From Planctomycetaceae bacterium (GTDB lineage Bacteria; Planctomycetota; Phycisphaerae; Sedimentisphaerales; UBA12454), in the NCBI GenBank assembly GCA_021371795.1, contig JAJFVK010000021.1:1-64000 (forward strand): 64,000 nt of DNA, read 5' to 3'. Every line of letters begins with the position of its first letter. The first letter of the stretch is position 1. The notes under the pieces are model-generated. The model had not been told where the DNA came from, searched no databases, and saw nothing but the letters and a program-made list of their open reading frames with translations. The position numbers and the translations under genes were made by a program. Shown piece after piece: positions 48,820 to 57,667 of this stretch.

Positions 48820-48876
48820 TCAGCTTATTGAAGGACATTTACCGGCTATTTTAGTCGGTTTTTCAAACTTTTTCAT
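48820..48876 (-). CDS. Possible 18-codon leader peptide with a very strong ribosome binding site, upstream of panB
   Basis: On the minus strand an ATG at 48876 is preceded by AGGAGGAGGGTG, and the frame reads MKKFEKPTKIAGKCPSIS before a stop at 48820. It lies 113 nt upstream of the panB ATG on the same strand, so it could be a leader peptide. A hairpin-forming AAGCCAGA...TCTGGCTT lies before the ribosome binding site. The same DNA can be read as a plus-strand small RNA instead (next entry). Only one of the two needs to be real. Confidence 0.35.
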   Translation of the reverse strand: MKKFEKPTKIAGKCPSIS

Positions 48877-48931
48877 CACCCTCCTCCTAAGCCAGATTCT
48901 GATAACAAATTAGGGTCTGGCTTTCTTTATA
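48823..48931 (+). ncRNA. Possible small RNA with two hairpins and a CCTCCTCC segment
   Basis: From the predicted start near 48823 the transcript would contain hairpin 1 at 48841-48859 (ACCGGCT/AGTCGGT) with a T run, an unpaired CACCCTCCTCCTAA segment, and hairpin 2 at 48889-48923 (AAGCCAGA/TCTGGCTT) with a T-rich tail. The CCTCCTCC segment could pair with Shine-Dalgarno sequences. The alternative is that this segment is simply the complement of a strong ribosome binding site on the minus strand. Confidence 0.3.
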
Positions 48932-48986: not shown

Positions 48987-49027
48987 TTGAACAAAAGTAA
49001 TCATACTGTATAATTTACAAAATTGTA
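48987..49027 (+). promoter_or_regulatory. Sigma-70 promoter of the sigma-54 activator gene with an overlapping TACA-N4-TGTA site
   Basis: TTGAAC (48987-48992) and a perfect TATAAT (49009-49014), 16 bp apart, predict a start near 49021. The inverted repeat TACAAAATTGTA at 49016-49027 covers that start. The same repeat occurs in pairs at the three sigma-54 promoters downstream. A single copy over the start site fits negative autoregulation by the activator. The rest of 48932-49076 shows nothing else. Confidence 0.6.
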
Positions 49028-49076
49028 TTTTCCTGTGTTTTGCTAACAATTTTGTAACTATAATGAAGGCATAAAA

Positions 49077-50606
49077 ATGACCGGTAAAATTTCCGATGGC
49101 GTAATGCTTTTAGGCGATATGGCAAGGGCTTTTGCTGAATCGCTCAACCTTGAGCTGACGATGAAAGCTATTTTGAAGTCCCTGGACACACACGTCAAGC
49201 TGCAAAAAGGCACCATTACCCTTTTAGACCCGGAAACAGAAACAATCAATATCAAAGTCGCGCACGGTTTAAGCGAAAAATCCAAGCAGCTCGGCAGCTA
49301 CAAAGTCGGCGAAGGCGTTACCGGCACAGTTGTTCAAACCGGTAAAGAAATTGTCGTGCCGGACATTTCCAAAGACAACAGATTTCTTCACCGTACACAT
49401 GCCAGAAAAGATTCTGAAGGCAAACAGATTTCATTTTATTGTGTGCCAATCAAACTTGAAGGCAAAACTATCGGTACATTGAGCGTTGACAGACAGGCAC
49501 ATAAAACGGACGATGTTCACTCGGTTCTCAATCTTCTGAATGTAATCGCGACAATGATTGCACAGGCTGTCAAGCTCAACAAACTTGTCGAATCGGACAG
49601 AAGACAGCTTTCAGAAGAAAACATTCGCCTGCGACAGGAATTAAAAACGCATTTCAATATAGATAATATGGTCGGCACAAGCAATGCCATTAAGCAAATA
49701 TACCGGCTCATCGAACAGGTAGCCGACAGCAACGCAACGGTGCTGATACGAGGTGAAAGCGGAACAGGCAAAGACCTCGTCGCGCACGCAATTCACTATA
49801 ATTGCAGCAGAGCAAGCAAACCGTTTGTAAAGGTAAACTGCACCGCTTTGCCTGAAACGCTGCTGGAAAGTGAATTGTTCGGCCATGAGAAAGGCGCTTT
49901 TACAGGCGCAACAGAAAGAAAAATCGGCAGATTTGAAAAAGCCAGCGGCGGAACAATCTTCCTCGATGAAATCGGCGACTTTTCAATGAATTTACAAGTT
50001 AAACTGCTGCGAATCATTCAGTTCAAGGAATTTGAACGTGTCGGCGGAACGGATACAATCAAAGCGAATGTAAGAATTGTCGTCGCGACAAATAAAAACC
50101 TCGAAGAACAGATAAAAGAAAAACTTTTCAGAGAAGACCTGTATTACAGAATCAATGTTTTTCCGATTTTCCTGCCGCCGCTGCGTGAACGCAAGGACGA
50201 TATTATGCTGCTTGCGGATTATTTCCTTGAACAATTCGCACGCGAAAACAACAAACGCATCACGCGCATTTCCACTCCCGCGATTGAAATGCTGACAAGC
50301 TACCACTGGCCCGGTAATGTCCGCGAACTGGAAAACTGCATCGAAAGAGCGATATTGCTCTGCAACGATGATGTGATTCGCTCGGAACATCTTCCGCCAT
50401 CTCTTCAGATGATTAAGAAAAGCGAATCGCTGACCGGTCGATCACTTACGGAAATCATAGAAAACAAAGAAAAGGAATTAATCATTGATTCGCTGAAAAA
50501 ATACAGCGGGCAACAACGAAAAGCCGCCACCGAACTTGGATTAACAGAACGAATCCTCGGTTATAAAATTAAAAAGTACGGAATATTTCCGAAACTGTTG
50601 TCATAA
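49077..50606 (+). CDS. Sigma-54-dependent transcriptional activator, GAF-AAA-Fis (NifA-like)
   Basis: A 509-residue bacterial enhancer-binding protein. Residues about 15-170 form a GAF sensor domain (NIKVAHGLSEKSKQ, GEGVTGTVVQTGKEIVVPDI). The AAA+ domain has Walker A GESGTGKD (226-233), the sigma-54 contact loop GAFTGA (273-278), Walker B TIFLDE (293-298) and the arginine-rich segment PLRERKDDI. A Fis-type helix-turn-helix ends the protein (QRKAATELGLTERILGYKIK). There is no receiver domain, so signalling is probably through the GAF domain, either by a ligand or by P-II binding as with NifA. Its position and the repeated sites downstream make it the likely activator of this nitrogen island. 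Confidence 0.93.
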   Translation: MTGKISDGVMLLGDMARAFAESLNLELTMKAILKSLDTHVKLQKGTITLLDPETETINIKVAHGLSEKSKQLGSYKVGEGVTGTVVQTGKEIVVPDISKDNRFLHRTHARKDSEGKQISFYCVPIKLEGKTIGTLSVDRQAHKTDDVHSVLNLLNVIATMIAQAVKLNKLVESDRRQLSEENIRLRQELKTHFNIDNMVGTSNAIKQIYRLIEQVADSNATVLIRGESGTGKDLVAHAIHYNCSRASKPFVKVNCTALPETLLESELFGHEKGAFTGATERKIGRFEKASGGTIFLDEIGDFSMNLQVKLLRIIQFKEFERVGGTDTIKANVRIVVATNKNLEEQIKEKLFREDLYYRINVFPIFLPPLRERKDDIMLLADYFLEQFARENNKRITRISTPAIEMLTSYHWPGNVRELENCIERAILLCNDDVIRSEHLPPSLQMIKKSESLTGRSLTEIIENKEKELIIDSLKKYSGQQRKAATELGLTERILGYKIKKYGIFPKLLS

Positions 50607-50609
50607 AAT

Positions 50610-50650
50610 TACAAAAACGTAACTTTTAAACATCGTTATACATTTTTGTA
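50610..50650 (+). promoter_or_regulatory. Paired upstream activator sites for the porin-amtB1-glnK1 operon
   Basis: TACAAAAACGTA (50610-50621) and TACATTTTTGTA (50639-50650) have centres 29 bp apart, about 141 and 112 bp before the predicted sigma-54 start. They match the TACA-N4-TGTA pattern seen before amtB2, glnN and the activator gene. Confidence 0.65.
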
Positions 50651-50730
50651 TATTTTTATATAATTGTACCATCTATCGGTTTTTGCCATAACCATCTCAT
50701 CACAATAAACTTACGAAATCATTTTTCATC

Positions 50731-50746
50731 TGGCACGCTTCTTGCT
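50731..50746 (+). promoter_or_regulatory. Sigma-54 promoter (-24/-12) of the porin operon
   Basis: TGGCACGCTTCTTGCT matches the TGGCAC-N5-TTGCW consensus completely, with GG and GC 12 bp apart. The predicted start is near 50757, about 42 nt before the ATG at 50799. Confidence 0.88.
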
Positions 50747-50798: not shown

Positions 50799-51578
50799 AT
50801 GAGAAAGTTAGCAGCGTTGATTTTGGTTTCGCTCTGTGCCTCGGCGGTACTGGCAGAAGATGATGACAAGATTGGTGTTACGCTTACCAGTGATTTCAAC
50901 AGCAAGTATGTTTGGCGCGGCCAGTTGCTGAACGATGATTTTGTTTTTCAGCCCGGTGCAACAGTAACGTACAAAGGTTTCTCGTTCAATGCCTGGGGCA
51001 ACATGGGACTTACTGAATACAATAAGGGTTTGGGATACGACAGCGGTGAATTTACAGAATGGGATTTCACGTTAAGTTACAGCGGGAAATTCAGTCCAGA
51101 AGGAAAACTTGGCTATAACATTGGTATGATTCACTATCAGTTCCCAAGTTCATATTTGGATACAACAGAATTATTTTGGGGACTGACTTATGATACGTTC
51201 CTTAGCCCGACACTTACAGTGTATCACGATATCGATGAAGCCGGCGGCGGTATATACGCAAACTTCGCAGTATCGCACAAAATAGAAAAAATAATTAAAG
51301 TTACTGAAAAAATTTCTGCCGACCTTGTGCTTGGTGCATCTGTGGGCTGGGGCAATACGGAATACAACGAATGGTATTGGGGCGCACAATCAGCCGACAG
51401 CAGACTCAACGATTTGGTATTCAAAGCTGCGTTGCCTTTTGCACTGCCGGGCGACTGGTCAATTACTCCGAGTATAAGTTTTGTTACTCTGGCTGACGGC
51501 AACATACGAAATTCAGATATGTATAGTACATCAAGCGATTACTTCATCGCGGGTGTAAGTATTTCAAAATCTTTCTAA
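50799..51578 (+). CDS. Outer-membrane beta-barrel protein, TorF/Gcw_chp-like putative porin
   Basis: A 259-residue protein with a signal peptide (MRKLAALILVSLCASAVLA) and a beta-barrel body ending in Phe (VSISKSF), as outer-membrane proteins do. The opening GVTLTSDFNSKYVWRGQLLN is characteristic of the putative porins that in Proteobacteria often sit beside amtB-glnK. It is the first gene after a sigma-54 promoter and 40 bp before amtB1, so a role in passing ammonium or another nitrogen source across the outer membrane is likely. Family naming is from memory of the motif. Confidence 0.78.
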   Translation: MRKLAALILVSLCASAVLAEDDDKIGVTLTSDFNSKYVWRGQLLNDDFVFQPGATVTYKGFSFNAWGNMGLTEYNKGLGYDSGEFTEWDFTLSYSGKFSPEGKLGYNIGMIHYQFPSSYLDTTELFWGLTYDTFLSPTLTVYHDIDEAGGGIYANFAVSHKIEKIIKVTEKISADLVLGASVGWGNTEYNEWYWGAQSADSRLNDLVFKAALPFALPGDWSITPSISFVTLADGNIRNSDMYSTSSDYFIAGVSISKSF

Positions 51579-51617: not shown

Positions 51618-52967
51618 ATGAAAAGGGTAAAATTATCTTTGGCGGGACTTGTTTGCGTCCTGATTGTCGCGATGCCTGCGATATGTATGGCTGAAGACGC
51701 GGCACCAACCCTCGAAAGCATCAAAGCAGAATTGCAAATGAACATTAACATTGTCTGGACATGTGTCGCGGCGTTTCTGGTGTTCTTTATGCAGGCCGGC
51801 TTCGCATTGGTCGAGACAGGCTTTACACGCGCGAAAAACGCAGTGAATATTCTGATGAAAAATCTTATGGACTTTGTAATCGGAAGTCTTGTATTTTTCC
51901 TTGTCGGATTCGGATTGATGTTCGGCGTATCGAACGGCATTTTCGGAACATCTATGTTCGGACTTGCCGGTACTGAACCAGGTTCAAGCTGGAACTGGAC
52001 GTTTCTGATTTTCCAAACGGTCTTTGCCGCAACTTCCGCGACAATCGTTTCTGGTGCGATGGCAGAACGAACTAAATTTATCAGCTACCTGATTTACAGC
52101 GCGATTATAAGCCTTGTAATTTATCCGGTATTCGGCTCGTGGGTATGGGGTAATCTGCTGCTGACCGACAACAACAGTTGGCTGGCAAAACTGGGCTTCC
52201 ATGATTTCGCAGGTTCGACAGTCGTACATTCAATCGGCGGATGGCTCGCACTTGCAGGCGCTATCACATTAGGCCCGCGTATTGGAAAATACGGTCTAAA
52301 CGGAAAACCTCGTGCGATTCTCGGCCACAGTATGCCGCTGGCAACATTGGGCGTTTTCATTCTCTGGTTCGGCTGGTTCGGCTTCAACCCCGGCAGCACA
52401 ACCGCAGGCAACGGGTTGGCAGGCTACATTGCTGTTACTACAAATTTAGCCGGTTGTGCCGGTGCTTTGACCGCGTTGATAGCATCCTGGAAAATCATTA
52501 AAAAACCTGATATTGGTATGACGCTCAACGGTGCATTGGCAGGTCTGGTCGCAATCACCGCACCGTGCGACGGAGTATCGCCGGTAAGCGCAATCATCAT
52601 CGGAGGCATCGCGGGTGTGTTAGTCGTACTTAGCGTATTGTTCTTAGATTATGTTCTTAAAATTGACGACCCGGTCGGTGCTGTCAGCGTTCACGCAGTC
52701 AACGGATGCTGGGGAACTTTATCTTACGGTTTGTTTGCCATCAACGGCGGCCTCTTTACCGGCGGCGGCATTAAACTGCTCGGAATACAGGCTCTCGGTG
52801 CAGGCACTGCTTTCGTATGGGCATTTGGACTTGGCATAATATTGTTCTGGATTCTTCGCAAAACCGTTGGTCTGCGTACCTCGGCCGAAGAAGAACTTAA
52901 AGGGCTTGATATCGGTGAACACGGAAACGAAGCTTACGCAGGCTTCCAAGTATTCACTAACGAATAA
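51618..52967 (+). CDS. amtB: Ammonium transporter 1 (Amt family)
   Basis: A 449-residue inner-membrane ammonium channel with a cleavable signal peptide ([18 protein letters not shown]) and eleven helices. The twin pore histidines lie in [13 protein letters not shown] and [11 protein letters not shown]. The signature [19 protein letters not shown] is present. The N-terminal helix [19 protein letters not shown] marks a different subfamily from amtB2. It is followed after 14 bp by its P-II protein. Confidence 0.95.
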
Positions 52968-52981
52968 CGGAGACACTAAAA

Positions 52982-53323
52982 ATGAAACTAATAGTTGCAT
53001 ACATACAACCACATAAACTTAACGATGTAAAACAATCGTTGTACAAAGCCGAAGTTTACAAAATGAGCGTAACAAACTCATTGGGCTGCGGACAGCAAAA
53101 AGGTTATCACGAATCGTATCGAGGCGTAGATGTCGAAGTGAATCTTCTGAAAAAAATCCGTCTCGAAGTCGCAGTCAACGAAGGGTTCGTTGAAAAAACC
53201 ATCAAAGCCATTATCGATGGCGCCAGGACAGGGCAAATCGGCGACGGCAAAATATTTGTTCTCGAACTGCCGGAGTGCATTAGAATCCGCACAGGCGAAC
53301 GAGGAGGTGAAGCTATTGGCTGA
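52982..53323 (+). CDS. glnK: P-II signal transduction protein 1 (GlnK-like), without Tyr51
   Basis: A 113-residue trimeric sensor of 2-oxoglutarate and ATP/ADP that blocks the partner Amt channel. Conserved elements: T-loop base GQQKG with Gln39, YRG at 46-48, and the C-terminal [14 protein letters not shown] and RIRTGE. Residue 51, the tyrosine uridylylated by GlnD in enterobacteria, is valine here (YRGVDVEV), and residue 49 is also valine, so the cyanobacterial phosphoserine is absent. Control is therefore probably by ligand binding only. Last gene of the porin-amtB1-glnK1 operon. Confidence 0.95.
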
Positions 53324-53433: not shown

Positions 53434-53475
53434 TACAAAATTGTCCGTACAGTGAATATAATCTACAAAATTGTA
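53434..53475 (+). promoter_or_regulatory. Paired upstream activator sites for amtB2-glnK2
   Basis: TACAAAATTGTC (53434-53445) and TACAAAATTGTA (53464-53475) are exactly 30 bp apart, with centres about 142 and 112 bp before the predicted sigma-54 start. The promoter-proximal copy is identical to the one over the activator gene's start site. Confidence 0.68.
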
Positions 53476-53555: not shown

Positions 53556-53571
53556 TGGCACACTTCTTGCA
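53556..53571 (+). promoter_or_regulatory. Sigma-54 promoter (-24/-12) of amtB2-glnK2
   Basis: TGGCACACTTCTTGCA matches the TGGCAC-N5-TTGCW consensus completely, GG and GC 12 bp apart. Predicted start near 53582, about 46 nt before the ATG at 53628. Confidence 0.88.
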
Positions 53572-53627: not shown

Positions 53628-54944
53628 ATGGTCAGCGCTCGTACATTGTTAATTTGTGGAGTATTGTTGCTCATCTCATCGTCAGCAAGTTTTGCCGGCG
53701 ACTCCCCCGCTCCGTCAATCGACACAGGCGACACGGCATGGATGCTCATGGCGACAGCATTGGTTATGCTAATGACGCCGGGGCTTGCATTTTTCTACGG
53801 CGGCCTGGTTCGCAGAAAAAATTATTTGAGTATCCTGATGCAGTGTTTTATCGCACTGGCATTGATAAGCATTCAATGGGTGCTGTTCGGCTACAGTTTA
53901 TCGTTCGCACCGGGAGCAAGCTGGATTGGCGGCCTGCAATGGTTCTGCCTTAAAGGCGTAGGACTTGAACCATATCCCGACTACGCGGCAACAATTCCAC
54001 ATCAATTATTTATGATGTTCCAGGCAATGTTCGCAATTATCACTCCCGCCCTTATAATTGGAGCGTTCGCGGAAAGAATGAAATTTTCAGCGTTTCTGCT
54101 TTTCACTCTGCTTTGGGCAACATTCATATATGACCCTGTCGCACACTGGGTATGGGGCGTCGGCGGATGGCTTAGAAATCTGGGCGCACTGGATTTTGCA
54201 GGCGGTACCGTTGTTCACATCAACGCTGGTATCGCGGCATTGGTTAGCGCAATTGTTATCGGCAAAAGAACCAGCTATATAAAATATTCAGTAGCTCCGC
54301 ACAATCTTCCGTTCAGTGTACTGGGCGCAGCATTGCTGTGGTTCGGCTGGTTCGGCTTCAACGCAGGAAGCGCACTTGGCGCAAACGGCATTGCAGTCAA
54401 CGCGTTTGTCGTAACCAACACCGCAGCGGCAGCGGCGGCATTAAGCTGGGCTTTCCTTGACTGGATATTCAATGGCAAACCGACAATGCTCGGTACAATT
54501 TCAGGTGCGGTCGCAGGTCTTGTCGCCATCACACCGGCGGCAGGCTACGTCGGCGTTGGCTCTGCGATAATAATCGGCCTGCTTGTCAGTGTGTTCTGCT
54601 TTATCGCGGTAAGCTTTATCAAACACAAATTAGGATACGATGATTCACTTGACGCCTTCGGCGTGCACGGTATAGGCGGTATTTGGGGATCGCTGGCGAC
54701 AGGATTATTCGCGTCAAAAGCTGTTAACCCCGCAGGCGCAGACGGCCTTTTTTTCGGCAACCCGCATTTGCTGTTGGTTCAGTTCGGCGCAACAGCAGTA
54801 ACGATAGTTTACGCTTTTGTCGGAACTTTAATTATCTACAAAATAATCGACGCATTGATCGGCGTACGAGTCGCGGATGAAGACGAGGCAATCGGCCTCG
54901 ACCTTACCCAACACAACGAACGTGCGTACACAATGCTTGAGTAA
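53628..54944 (+). CDS. amtB: Ammonium transporter 2 (Amt family)
   Basis: A 438-residue ammonium channel with signal peptide (LLICGVLLLISSSASFA). Closer to the classical AmtB than the first copy: GDTAWMLMATALVMLMTPGLAFFYGGLVRRKN at the first helix is the family entry motif, and the pore histidines lie in DFAGGTVVHINAG and DAFGVHGIGGIWG. The signature is [22 protein letters not shown] lies 12 nt before the ATG, a little far. Followed by its own P-II gene after 28 bp. Confidence 0.95.
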   Translation: MVSARTLLICGVLLLISSSASFAGDSPAPSIDTGDTAWMLMATALVMLMTPGLAFFYGGLVRRKNYLSILMQCFIALALISIQWVLFGYSLSFAPGASWIGGLQWFCLKGVGLEPYPDYAATIPHQLFMMFQAMFAIITPALIIGAFAERMKFSAFLLFTLLWATFIYDPVAHWVWGVGGWLRNLGALDFAGGTVVHINAGIAALVSAIVIGKRTSYIKYSVAPHNLPFSVLGAALLWFGWFGFNAGSALGANGIAVNAFVVTNTAAAAAALSWAFLDWIFNGKPTMLGTISGAVAGLVAITPAAGYVGVGSAIIIGLLVSVFCFIAVSFIKHKLGYDDSLDAFGVHGIGGIWGSLATGLFASKAVNPAGADGLFFGNPHLLLVQFGATAVTIVYAFVGTLIIYKIIDALIGVRVADEDEAIGLDLTQHNERAYTMLE

Positions 54945-54972
54945 TATCAAATAACTGAAAGGATAAAATACA

Positions 54973-55314
54973 ATGAAACTTGTAATTGCTGTAATTCAGC
55001 CGCATAGACTCGAAGAAGTAAAAGAAGAACTTTACAAAGAAGAAATAAACCTGATGACTGTAAGCGAAGTGCTCGGCCACGGCAGACAAAAAGGCGTTAC
55101 CGAAGTTTATCGCGGAATGAAAGAAACAGGAAATCTGTTACGAAAAATCCGACTCGAAATAGCGGTAAATGATAATTTCGTAGAGCGTGCAATCTCTGCA
55201 ATCGCCAGAGGCGCAAAAACAGGCAAAACCGGTGACGGCAAAATCTTTGTCGTTGAATTGCCCGAATGCGTCAGGATTCGTACCGGCGAAAGAGGCAGCG
55301 AAGCTATCGGTTAA
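54973..55314 (+). CDS. glnK: P-II signal transduction protein 2 (GlnK-like), without Tyr51
   Basis: A 113-residue P-II protein closely related to the first copy. Gln39 (GHGRQKG), YRG at 46-48, TGKTGDGKIFVVEL and [13 protein letters not shown] are present. Residue 51 is glutamate (YRGMKETGN), so the GlnD target tyrosine is absent here too. The differing T-loops of the two copies (VDVEV versus MKETG) suggest each recognises its own Amt partner. Confidence 0.95.
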   Translation: MKLVIAVIQPHRLEEVKEELYKEEINLMTVSEVLGHGRQKGVTEVYRGMKETGNLLRKIRLEIAVNDNFVERAISAIARGAKTGKTGDGKIFVVELPECVRIRTGERGSEAIG

Positions 55315-55363: not shown

Positions 55364-55405
55364 TACAAAAATGTAGTTTTATTAAGAAAAAACTACATAA
55401 ACGTA
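55364..55405 (+). promoter_or_regulatory. Paired upstream activator sites for glnN
   Basis: TACAAAAATGTA (55364-55375) and TACATAAACGTA (55394-55405) are exactly 30 bp apart, with centres about 150 and 120 bp before the predicted sigma-54 start; the distance is about 8 bp longer than at the other two operons. Confidence 0.63.
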
Positions 55406-55450
55406 AACATTCAACTTTTCTGTTGAAATTAAATTGTGATGTAATATCTT

Positions 55451-55509
55451 TACCAGTAATGCCATACGGAATTTTTTATCCGTCCGGTAATACTGGTATA
55501 GAAATTGCA
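55451..55509 (+). promoter_or_regulatory. Sigma-54 promoter of glnN, overlapped by an inverted repeat
   Basis: TGGTATAGAAATTGCA (55494-55509) keeps GG and GC 12 bp apart and matches the -12 half fully; the -24 half is TGGTAT instead of TGGCAC. The right arm of a perfect 8-bp inverted repeat, TACCAGTA (55451-55458) with TACTGGTA (55491-55498), overlaps the -24 element; inside it ACGGA and TCCGT can also pair. Predicted start near 55520. Confidence 0.7.
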
Positions 55510-55558
55510 TAAAATATTAGGTGTTTGAAGGTGTTTAAAACTTTTTAGGAGTATGAAA

Positions 55559-57667
55559 ATGACTGAAAACTGTGAATCGGTTACGGCCGTATTCGGTAAG
55601 AATGTGTTCAACGACGTTGTTATGAAAGAACGTCTGCCAAAGGTAGTATATAAAGAGTTCAAGAAGACAATCGCCGAGGGCAGATTCCTCGATATGGCAC
55701 TGGCCAACATAGTCGCCAATACGATGAAGGATTGGGCAATCGAAAAAGGCGCAACGCACTTCTGCCACTGGTTCCAGCCGATGACAGGTTTGACTGCTGA
55801 AAAGCACGATTCATTTATCTCGCCGACTCCTGAAGGCACAACCATTATGGAGTTCAGCGGCAAGGAACTCATTCAGGGCGAACCTGACGCTTCGAGTTTT
55901 CCGTCCGGCGGATTGAGAGCTACATTCGAAGCTCGCGGTTATACAGCATGGGACTGCACAAGCCCGGTATTCATTAAAGAAACCGGCAAAAATATCACGC
56001 TGTTTATTCCGTGCGCATTCTGCTCATATCACGCAGAAGCACTCGACAAGAAAACTCCCCTGTTGCGTTCAATGGACGCACTGAACAAACAGGCTCTTAG
56101 GGTTTTGAAGGTATTGGGCAATACAACAACGAAAATCGTCAACGCTACATTAGGTCCGGAACAGGAATACTTCCTGATTGACAAGAAGTACTATGAAAAA
56201 CGGCTCGACCTTATGCTGACCGGCAGAACACTCTTCGGCGCAGCGACTCCTCGCGGTCAGGAAATGAGCGATCACTATTTCGGCTCACTGCACGAAAGAA
56301 TCGCGTCTTATATGCACGATTTAAATTTCGAGCTTTGGAAACTCGGCGTTTCAGCCAAGACACAGCACAACGAAGTATCGCCTGCACAGTATGAGCTTGC
56401 TCCGGTATTCAGCACCGTGAACGTCGCGACGGACCACAATCAGCTCGTGATGGAAACGATGCAGAAAATCGCATTAAGACACAATTTCGTCTGCCTGCTT
56501 TATGAAAAACCATTCAGAGGCGTTAACGGCTCCGGCAAACACAATAACTGGAGTATGTCAACTGACGACGGTCTGAACCTGCTCGAACCGGGCAGCACAC
56601 CGCACGATAATATGATATTCCTTGTTATGCTTTGTGCGGTTATCAAAGCGGTTGATAAATATGCCAAGCTGCTCCGCGCAAGCGTCGCTTCGCCGGGCAA
56701 CGACCACAGACTCGGAGCTCACGAAGCACCGCCCGCAATCGTGTCGATATTCCTCGGCGACCAGTTGACAGACATTGTTGAACAGCTCGCAATCGGCAGC
56801 GCAAAGGCTTCAAAGGCCGGTGGTCAGTTGAAACTCGGCGTATCTTCTCTGCCGCAGCTTCCGAAAGACAGCACCGACAGAAACAGAACTTCGCCGTTCG
56901 CTTTCACAGGCAACAAGTTCGAGTTCCGTATGGTTGGTTCAAGCCAGTCAACAGCAGGCCCGATGTTCGTATTGAACACCATCGTGGCACAATCTCTGAT
57001 GGAAATCGCGGATGAACTCGAAAAGAGCAGCAATGTAAAAGCTACCGCACAGAAGATTCTGACGAAAATCGCAAAGGAAAACAGCAGAGTCATCTTCAAC
57101 GGCGACAACTACACTGAAGCATGGGCAAAGGAAGCTGAAAAACGCGGCCTGCCGAATATTAAATCGTCTGTTGACGCGACAAAAATTATTGCTGACGAAG
57201 AAAACATTAAATTGTTTACAACGCACAAAGTGCTGTCAAAGCCTGAACTGAAGGCAAGAACTGAAATTCTGCTCGACGCATACAGCACGACAATTATTAT
57301 CGAAGGCAAGACGGCTTTGAACATGGCACAGCGTCAGATTTTGCCGACAGCAATTGAATATGCTTCAAAACTGGCAAAAGCTATCGATCGTATCAGTAAT
57401 GCCGGCAGCAATCCTGACACCGAGAAAACTATTCTCGACAAGACCTGCAAACTCATTACAGACCTTAATAACAGCATGGAAGAACTGAAAAATGCAATTT
57501 CCAAGGCAAATGACATTGACAGTACCGCCAAAAAAGCGGAAACTTGCAGAGATACTATAGTAGTCGGTATGAATGCGGTCAGAAAAGCCTCTGACGAACT
57601 GGAGTTAATCGTTGACGCGAAAATGTGGCCCCTTCCCACTTACGCGGAAATGCTTTTCGGCAAATAA
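55559..57667 (+). CDS. glnN: Glutamine synthetase type III
   Basis: A 702-residue GSIII enzyme (GSI is about 470 residues), forming glutamine from glutamate, ammonium and ATP. The ATG at 55559 is chosen over 55553 because AGGAG at 55547-55551 is then 7 nt away. Landmarks: HFCHWFQPMTGLTAEKHDSF, ATLGPEQEYFLID, KTQHNEVSPAQYELAPVF, GSGKHNNWSMST and the C-terminal half specific to type III, ending WPLPTYAEMLFGK. It assimilates the ammonium brought in by the two Amt channels and feeds GltBD downstream. Confidence 0.96.
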   Translation: MTENCESVTAVFGKNVFNDVVMKERLPKVVYKEFKKTIAEGRFLDMALANIVANTMKDWAIEKGATHFCHWFQPMTGLTAEKHDSFISPTPEGTTIMEFSGKELIQGEPDASSFPSGGLRATFEARGYTAWDCTSPVFIKETGKNITLFIPCAFCSYHAEALDKKTPLLRSMDALNKQALRVLKVLGNTTTKIVNATLGPEQEYFLIDKKYYEKRLDLMLTGRTLFGAATPRGQEMSDHYFGSLHERIASYMHDLNFELWKLGVSAKTQHNEVSPAQYELAPVFSTVNVATDHNQLVMETMQKIALRHNFVCLLYEKPFRGVNGSGKHNNWSMSTDDGLNLLEPGSTPHDNMIFLVMLCAVIKAVDKYAKLLRASVASPGNDHRLGAHEAPPAIVSIFLGDQLTDIVEQLAIGSAKASKAGGQLKLGVSSLPQLPKDSTDRNRTSPFAFTGNKFEFRMVGSSQSTAGPMFVLNTIVAQSLMEIADELEKSSNVKATAQKILTKIAKENSRVIFNGDNYTEAWAKEAEKRGLPNIKSSVDATKIIADEENIKLFTTHKVLSKPELKARTEILLDAYSTTIIIEGKTALNMAQRQILPTAIEYASKLAKAIDRISNAGSNPDTEKTILDKTCKLITDLNNSMEELKNAISKANDIDSTAKKAETCRDTIVVGMNAVRKASDELELIVDAKMWPLPTYAEMLFGK

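Follow-up and report, generated by a model that had tools for sequence, protein, structure and literature searches.

The activator gene and its neighbourhood

The window, by which we mean the whole 64,000-nucleotide stretch of planctomycete DNA that was analysed, carries a gene for a sigma-54 activator followed by genes of ammonium transport and assimilation. The features of this region are listed below in their order along the sequence, with the strand where the feature has one.

About 48824-48930, + strand: candidate trans-acting small RNA, made of a hairpin, the invariant TTTTCATCACCCTCCTC and then a terminator hairpin
48987-49014, + strand: candidate promoter P1, TTGAAC-16-TATAAT, with its -10 directly ahead of site 1, an arrangement conserved solely within the window's family
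49016-49027: leader operator site 1, TACAAAATTGTA, a perfect copy of the motif, conserved in the leaders of orthologues
49045-49056: leader operator site 2, AACAATTTTGTA, one mismatch, 29 bp centre to centre from site 1, conserved in the leaders of orthologues
49059-49064, + strand: -10 of candidate promoter P2, a perfect TATAAT just past site 2; weak -35 in the source genome
49077-50606, + strand: activator gene (GAF, sigma-54 AAA+ with GAFTGA, Fis-type HTH; Pfam and NCBIfam nifA)
50610-50650: target pair with 29-bp spacing, preceding the porin-like gene and amt-glnK
50731-50746, + strand: -24/-12 element TGGCACGCTTCTTGCT, +100 bp from the centre of the preceding pair
50799-51578, + strand: porin-like secreted protein, the first gene past the activator and before amt, with homologues beside pairs in relatives
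51618-53323, + strand: amt (ammonium transporter) and glnK (PII), by Pfam
53434-53475: target pair with 30-bp spacing, preceding the second amt-glnK
53556-53571, + strand: -24/-12 element TGGCACACTTCTTGCA, +101 bp from the centre of the preceding pair
53628-55314, + strand: second amt and glnK, by Pfam
55364-55405: target pair with 30-bp spacing, preceding glutamine synthetase III
55494-55509, + strand: weaker -24/-12 element TGGTATAGAAATTGCA, +109 bp from the centre of the preceding pair
55553-57667, + strand: glutamine synthetase type III, by Pfam

What kind of regulator does this gene encode? The receiver domain that precedes the AAA+ domain in NtrC is absent from the protein, with a GAF domain in its place according to Pfam, and this order of GAF, sigma-54 AAA+ with GAFTGA and Fis-type HTH is that of the NifA/AnfA/VnfA group. 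The protein narrowly passes the NCBIfam nifA model (535.3 bits, cut-off 528.85) and stays under the cut-off of the ntrC model (345.9 bits against 558.6). A comparison with solved structures ranked a Nif-specific regulatory protein first, and rpoN was found in the genome. An automatic label of nitrogen-fixation regulator would nevertheless mislead, because nifH over the cut-off was found neither in the source genome nor in 12 relatives; a role in nitrogen fixation was rejected on that ground. Nor is this an AnfA or NifA in the strict sense of nitrogenase control, its neighbours being amt, glnK and glutamine synthetase III. The protein looks AnfA-like in its DNA recognition but, judged from these neighbours, appears to regulate ammonium uptake and assimilation. 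In one relative (G023, C1:1317195-1318687) the orthologue is split into two matches with an internal TGA, either because the gene is broken or because the assembly is wrong there.

The porin-like protein belongs to no Pfam family. The recurrence of its homologues beside site pairs in many relatives suggests a possible role as an outer-membrane protein under nitrogen control.

Immediately upstream of the activator, the region at about 48824-48930 is probably a small RNA, a candidate that recurs across the order. Its 17-mer TTTTCATCACCCTCCTC, which contains the anti-Shine-Dalgarno CCCUCCUCC, is present in 37 of 59 genomes, most often as one or two copies each, with no occurrence in the control. 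A terminator-like hairpin follows on the 3′ side in all 26 copies read, including L104, where the stem is wholly different. The stem of the candidate is mostly conserved, with three compensated pairs. The loci are those of the window, L002-L004, L006, L029 and L095-L114, and among the sequences read the candidate adjoins the activator only in the window's family. Rfam gave no match at the candidate, the only hit in the region being at chance level and elsewhere. On the reverse strand a ribosome-binding site and an ATG can be read, but the encoded peptide is not conserved.

A pair of sites in the activator leader

The original prediction described a single perfect copy of the enhancer motif over the start site of the activator gene. 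The perfect copy TACAAAATTGTA does lie at 49016-49027, over the start predicted from P1 (about 49021). It is not alone: a scan allowing two mismatches brought up AACAATTTTGTA at 49045-49056, 29 bp away, which had been missed. This layout matches that of the target pairs in the window at 50610/50639 (29 bp), 53434/53464 (30 bp) and 55364/55394 (30 bp). The argument that a single site blocks the polymerase while a pair activates is therefore rejected, because the activator's own leader holds a pair too.

Pattern searches located the pair at four places, and no more, in the 2.85-Mb genome; they lie together in the activator cluster, within 7 kb, whereas a reversed-pattern control over the same genome returned no pairs. 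Across 59 genomes (the source and its relatives) the pair pattern occurred 0 to 4 times per genome and never in the controls. Single sites are common, with 117 found by a looser pattern against 148 in the control, so that only the pair is informative. Moreover, all 30 pair loci fetched from relatives adjoin homologues of the activator, the porin-like gene, amt, glnK or glutamine synthetase III. We infer from this distribution that the activator itself is the binder. Another protein recognising the same motif could be sought among the at least six further matches to the activator that the genome holds; these are all much weaker, and the confinement of the pairs to the activator's cluster, beside the same genes in relatives, makes such a binder very unlikely.

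Conservation was assessed in 30 activator loci from whole genomes, including the source, and 19 further named genomes. Together they represent 48 planctomycete genomes at the order level, those with a name belonging to Phycisphaerae or Sedimentisphaerales, and a single Dependentiae outgroup. With a modest score as threshold, both leader sites are recognised in 47 of the 48 order-level genomes, at a spacing of 29 bp in 39, 30 bp in 6, 27 bp in one and 40 bp in one; the pair is missing in L018 and in the outgroup (L062), and some relatives (L009, L020, L029) have one weak site. At an equal score, 29- or 30-bp pairs are found in 45 of 48 real leaders as opposed to 2 of 600 shuffled ones, counts that, the genomes being kin, represent non-independent events.

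Could the repeats act as RNA, or be promoter hexamers only? The two sites are mutually complementary and both contain hexamer-like parts. Folding of the leader RNA, however, is no better than that of shuffles (z 0.25), and a leader hairpin was rejected on that ground; likewise, hexamers alone were discarded because the outer halves of both palindromes are conserved as well. Given that the same motif stands upstream of sigma-54 promoters, we regard both explanations as highly improbable.

Enhancer sites are able to act over long distances, and the targets lie 1.7 to 6.5 kb downstream of the leader. The activator might thus bind its leader pair with little effect on its own gene, the pair serving mainly as a roadblock to readthrough or as a second enhancer or sink that tunes nearby targets. 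No target, however, lacks a pair of its own at the usual distance, and the activator keeps its leader pair even where the next gene has none (L010, L012, L014 and L028), which renders this role quite unlikely.

Promoters at the leader and at the targets

That no -24/-12 element lies near the activator gene, as had been proposed, was borne out. The best score at the leader and gene start is 1.0, compared with 18.1 for the two amt-type targets. A sigma-54 promoter within the leader, close to it or at the gene start was considered; TGGCAAGGGCTTTTGCT (about 49120-49136) resembles one but was rejected for its wrong spacing. When the surroundings of the leader pairs were scanned in all relatives, no usable element appeared; the top score was 9.2 and none stood at the target distance. 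By contrast, there are 15 clear pairs beyond the activator gene, and each of them is followed, +100 to +121 from its centre, by an element with a score of 12.9 to 18.1. The three target pairs of the window each consist of two TAC-N6-GTA palindromes upstream of a -24/-12 element, the arrangement that characterises AnfA. A third, weaker site, TATATAATTGTA, is found at 50657-50668, just past the first target pair. Between the enhancer pair and the gene for glutamine synthetase III there is also a long inverted repeat, TACCAGTAATGCCATACGGA...TCCGTCCGGTAATACTGGTA (55447-55499), which reaches into the -24 element; in Rfam it gave a chance-level miRNA match only.

At the leader, the predicted sigma-70-like promoter was found where it had been placed (P1: TTGAAC 48987-48992, 16-bp spacer, TATAAT 49009-49014; 10 of 12 matches). 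Such a match is by itself weak evidence; 24 occur in 5.5 kb and about 10 are expected. A second candidate, P2, has a TTG within the inter-site spacer and its -10 just past site 2. By a generic sigma-70 matrix, which is not specific to planctomycetes, the placement of P1 exceeds 300 shuffles in the window's family and not elsewhere, whereas that of P2 exceeds them both in the window's family and in other lineages. The start at about 49021, predicted from P1, is thus just one of at least two candidates; of the two promoters, P2 is the more widely conserved.

Under P1, the pair spans about -5 to +36; under P2, site 2 falls within the -35/-10 spacer and site 1 is centred near -50. By position, P1 and P2 alike predict interference with the polymerase. 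Only about 18-31 nt separate the end of site 2 from the aligned protein start in the window's family, too little for a whole sigma-70 promoter downstream of the pair.

Positive autoregulation would need the pair to activate the gene through P2 or through a sigma-54 promoter overlooked by the scan. In its favour, the leader pair is built like the enhancers, and site 1 near -50 under P2 would occupy a position from which some activators work. On the other hand, site 2 would then sit inside the spacer of P2, under P1 the pair would lie over the start, and -24/-12 elements are lacking around the leader pairs, which together make this alternative unlikely.

The own sites of the activator thus lie over a candidate sigma-70 promoter devoid of a -24/-12 element, which in sequence terms is the arrangement of a self-repressing sigma-54 activator, and its best reading is an AnfA/NifA-like nitrogen activator repressing its own gene. 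We consider it likely that, from its leader pair, the activator holds down its own sigma-70 transcription while driving the sigma-54 targets from the enhancer pairs. Negative autoregulation coupled to positive control of the targets had been suggested before on the single-site argument; that reason does not stand, and the idea survives because of the position of the pair, which lies shortly ahead of the start codon and over candidate sigma-70 promoters in 47 of 48 leaders and never with a -24/-12 element.

Accordingly worded as a model, the activator would, probably in the form of two dimers, bind both TAC-N6-GTA palindromes of its leader (49016-49027 and 49045-49056). Once bound, it would overlap the sigma-70 promoter region, presumably that of P1 or P2, and hinder binding or escape of the RNA polymerase, with the net effect of keeping its own level down. 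At the porin-like/amt/glnK genes, the second amt/glnK and glutamine synthetase III, the pair about 100-110 bp upstream of the -24/-12 element would serve as a sigma-54 enhancer. Nitrogen status would gate the activator, perhaps by way of the GAF domain, on which PII or 2-oxoglutarate might act. Gating by PII is plausible because two glnK genes are among the targets and because PII has been proposed to work through AnfA in Rhodopseudomonas (PMC12093980).

Leader and target pairs differ in position and, mostly, in spacing. A spacing of 29 bp occurs in 39 of 45 leader pairs and in 8 of 50 other pairs (Fisher p about 2e-12, a value inflated by shared ancestry). Target pairs are usually 30 bp apart, one exception being the window's own first target pair. 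We present this contrast as an observation and not as a demonstrated code. One might imagine a two-dimer module with two modes set by position and 1 bp of spacing, in which 29 bp over the own promoter would give a repressing complex and 30 bp at the enhancers an active hexamer, a proposal that we hold to be doubtful. If true, repression and activation would be told apart by a conserved code, the inter-site spacing.

Relation to known nitrogen regulators

The principle of control is already known, and the activator circuit is probably a new example of it. PspF and XylR are sigma-54 activators that lower transcription of their own sigma-70 promoters (pspF and Pr), and their own-promoter sites also serve a divergent target promoter. 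The leader pair described here differs from that arrangement in being separate from all target pairs. A search for literature directly on pspF autoregulation or on planctomycete nitrogen regulators found none.

The E. coli NtrC protein represses glnAp1 and glnLp and activates glnAp2 (PMC3870243). The likeness is that of a sigma-54 nitrogen activator repressing sigma-70 promoters that feed its own gene (PMC3870243). NtrC, however, has a receiver domain, other sites and a gene within the glnA operon, whereas the planctomycete activator is a GAF protein, is encoded by a separate gene and has a leader pair to itself.

In DNA recognition the closer parallel is AnfA, with the consensus TAC-N6-GTA. 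Rhodobacter capsulatus has two such palindromes ahead of a -24/-12 promoter just past the activator gene (PMC7294313). The window shares with it the order of GAF, AAA+ and HTH, the paired palindromes and a -24/-12 element just past the activator gene. The VnfA motif has the GTA half in common (PMC9542535). Autoregulation of anfA is not mentioned in the passages of PMC7294313 considered here. Unlike AnfA, which serves Fe-nitrogenase, the activator has as putative targets ammonium transport, PII and glutamine synthetase III.

The window thus presents a compact planctomycete nitrogen circuit with one AnfA/NifA-like activator, four paired operators, two amt genes with PII and glutamine synthetase III, in a lineage known mostly through metagenome-assembled genomes. 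If the contrast between 29 and 30 bp matters, the way in which an enhancer-binding protein decides between repression and activation could be tested directly with it. The circuit suggests that AnfA-type DNA recognition can serve ordinary ammonium assimilation without nitrogenase.
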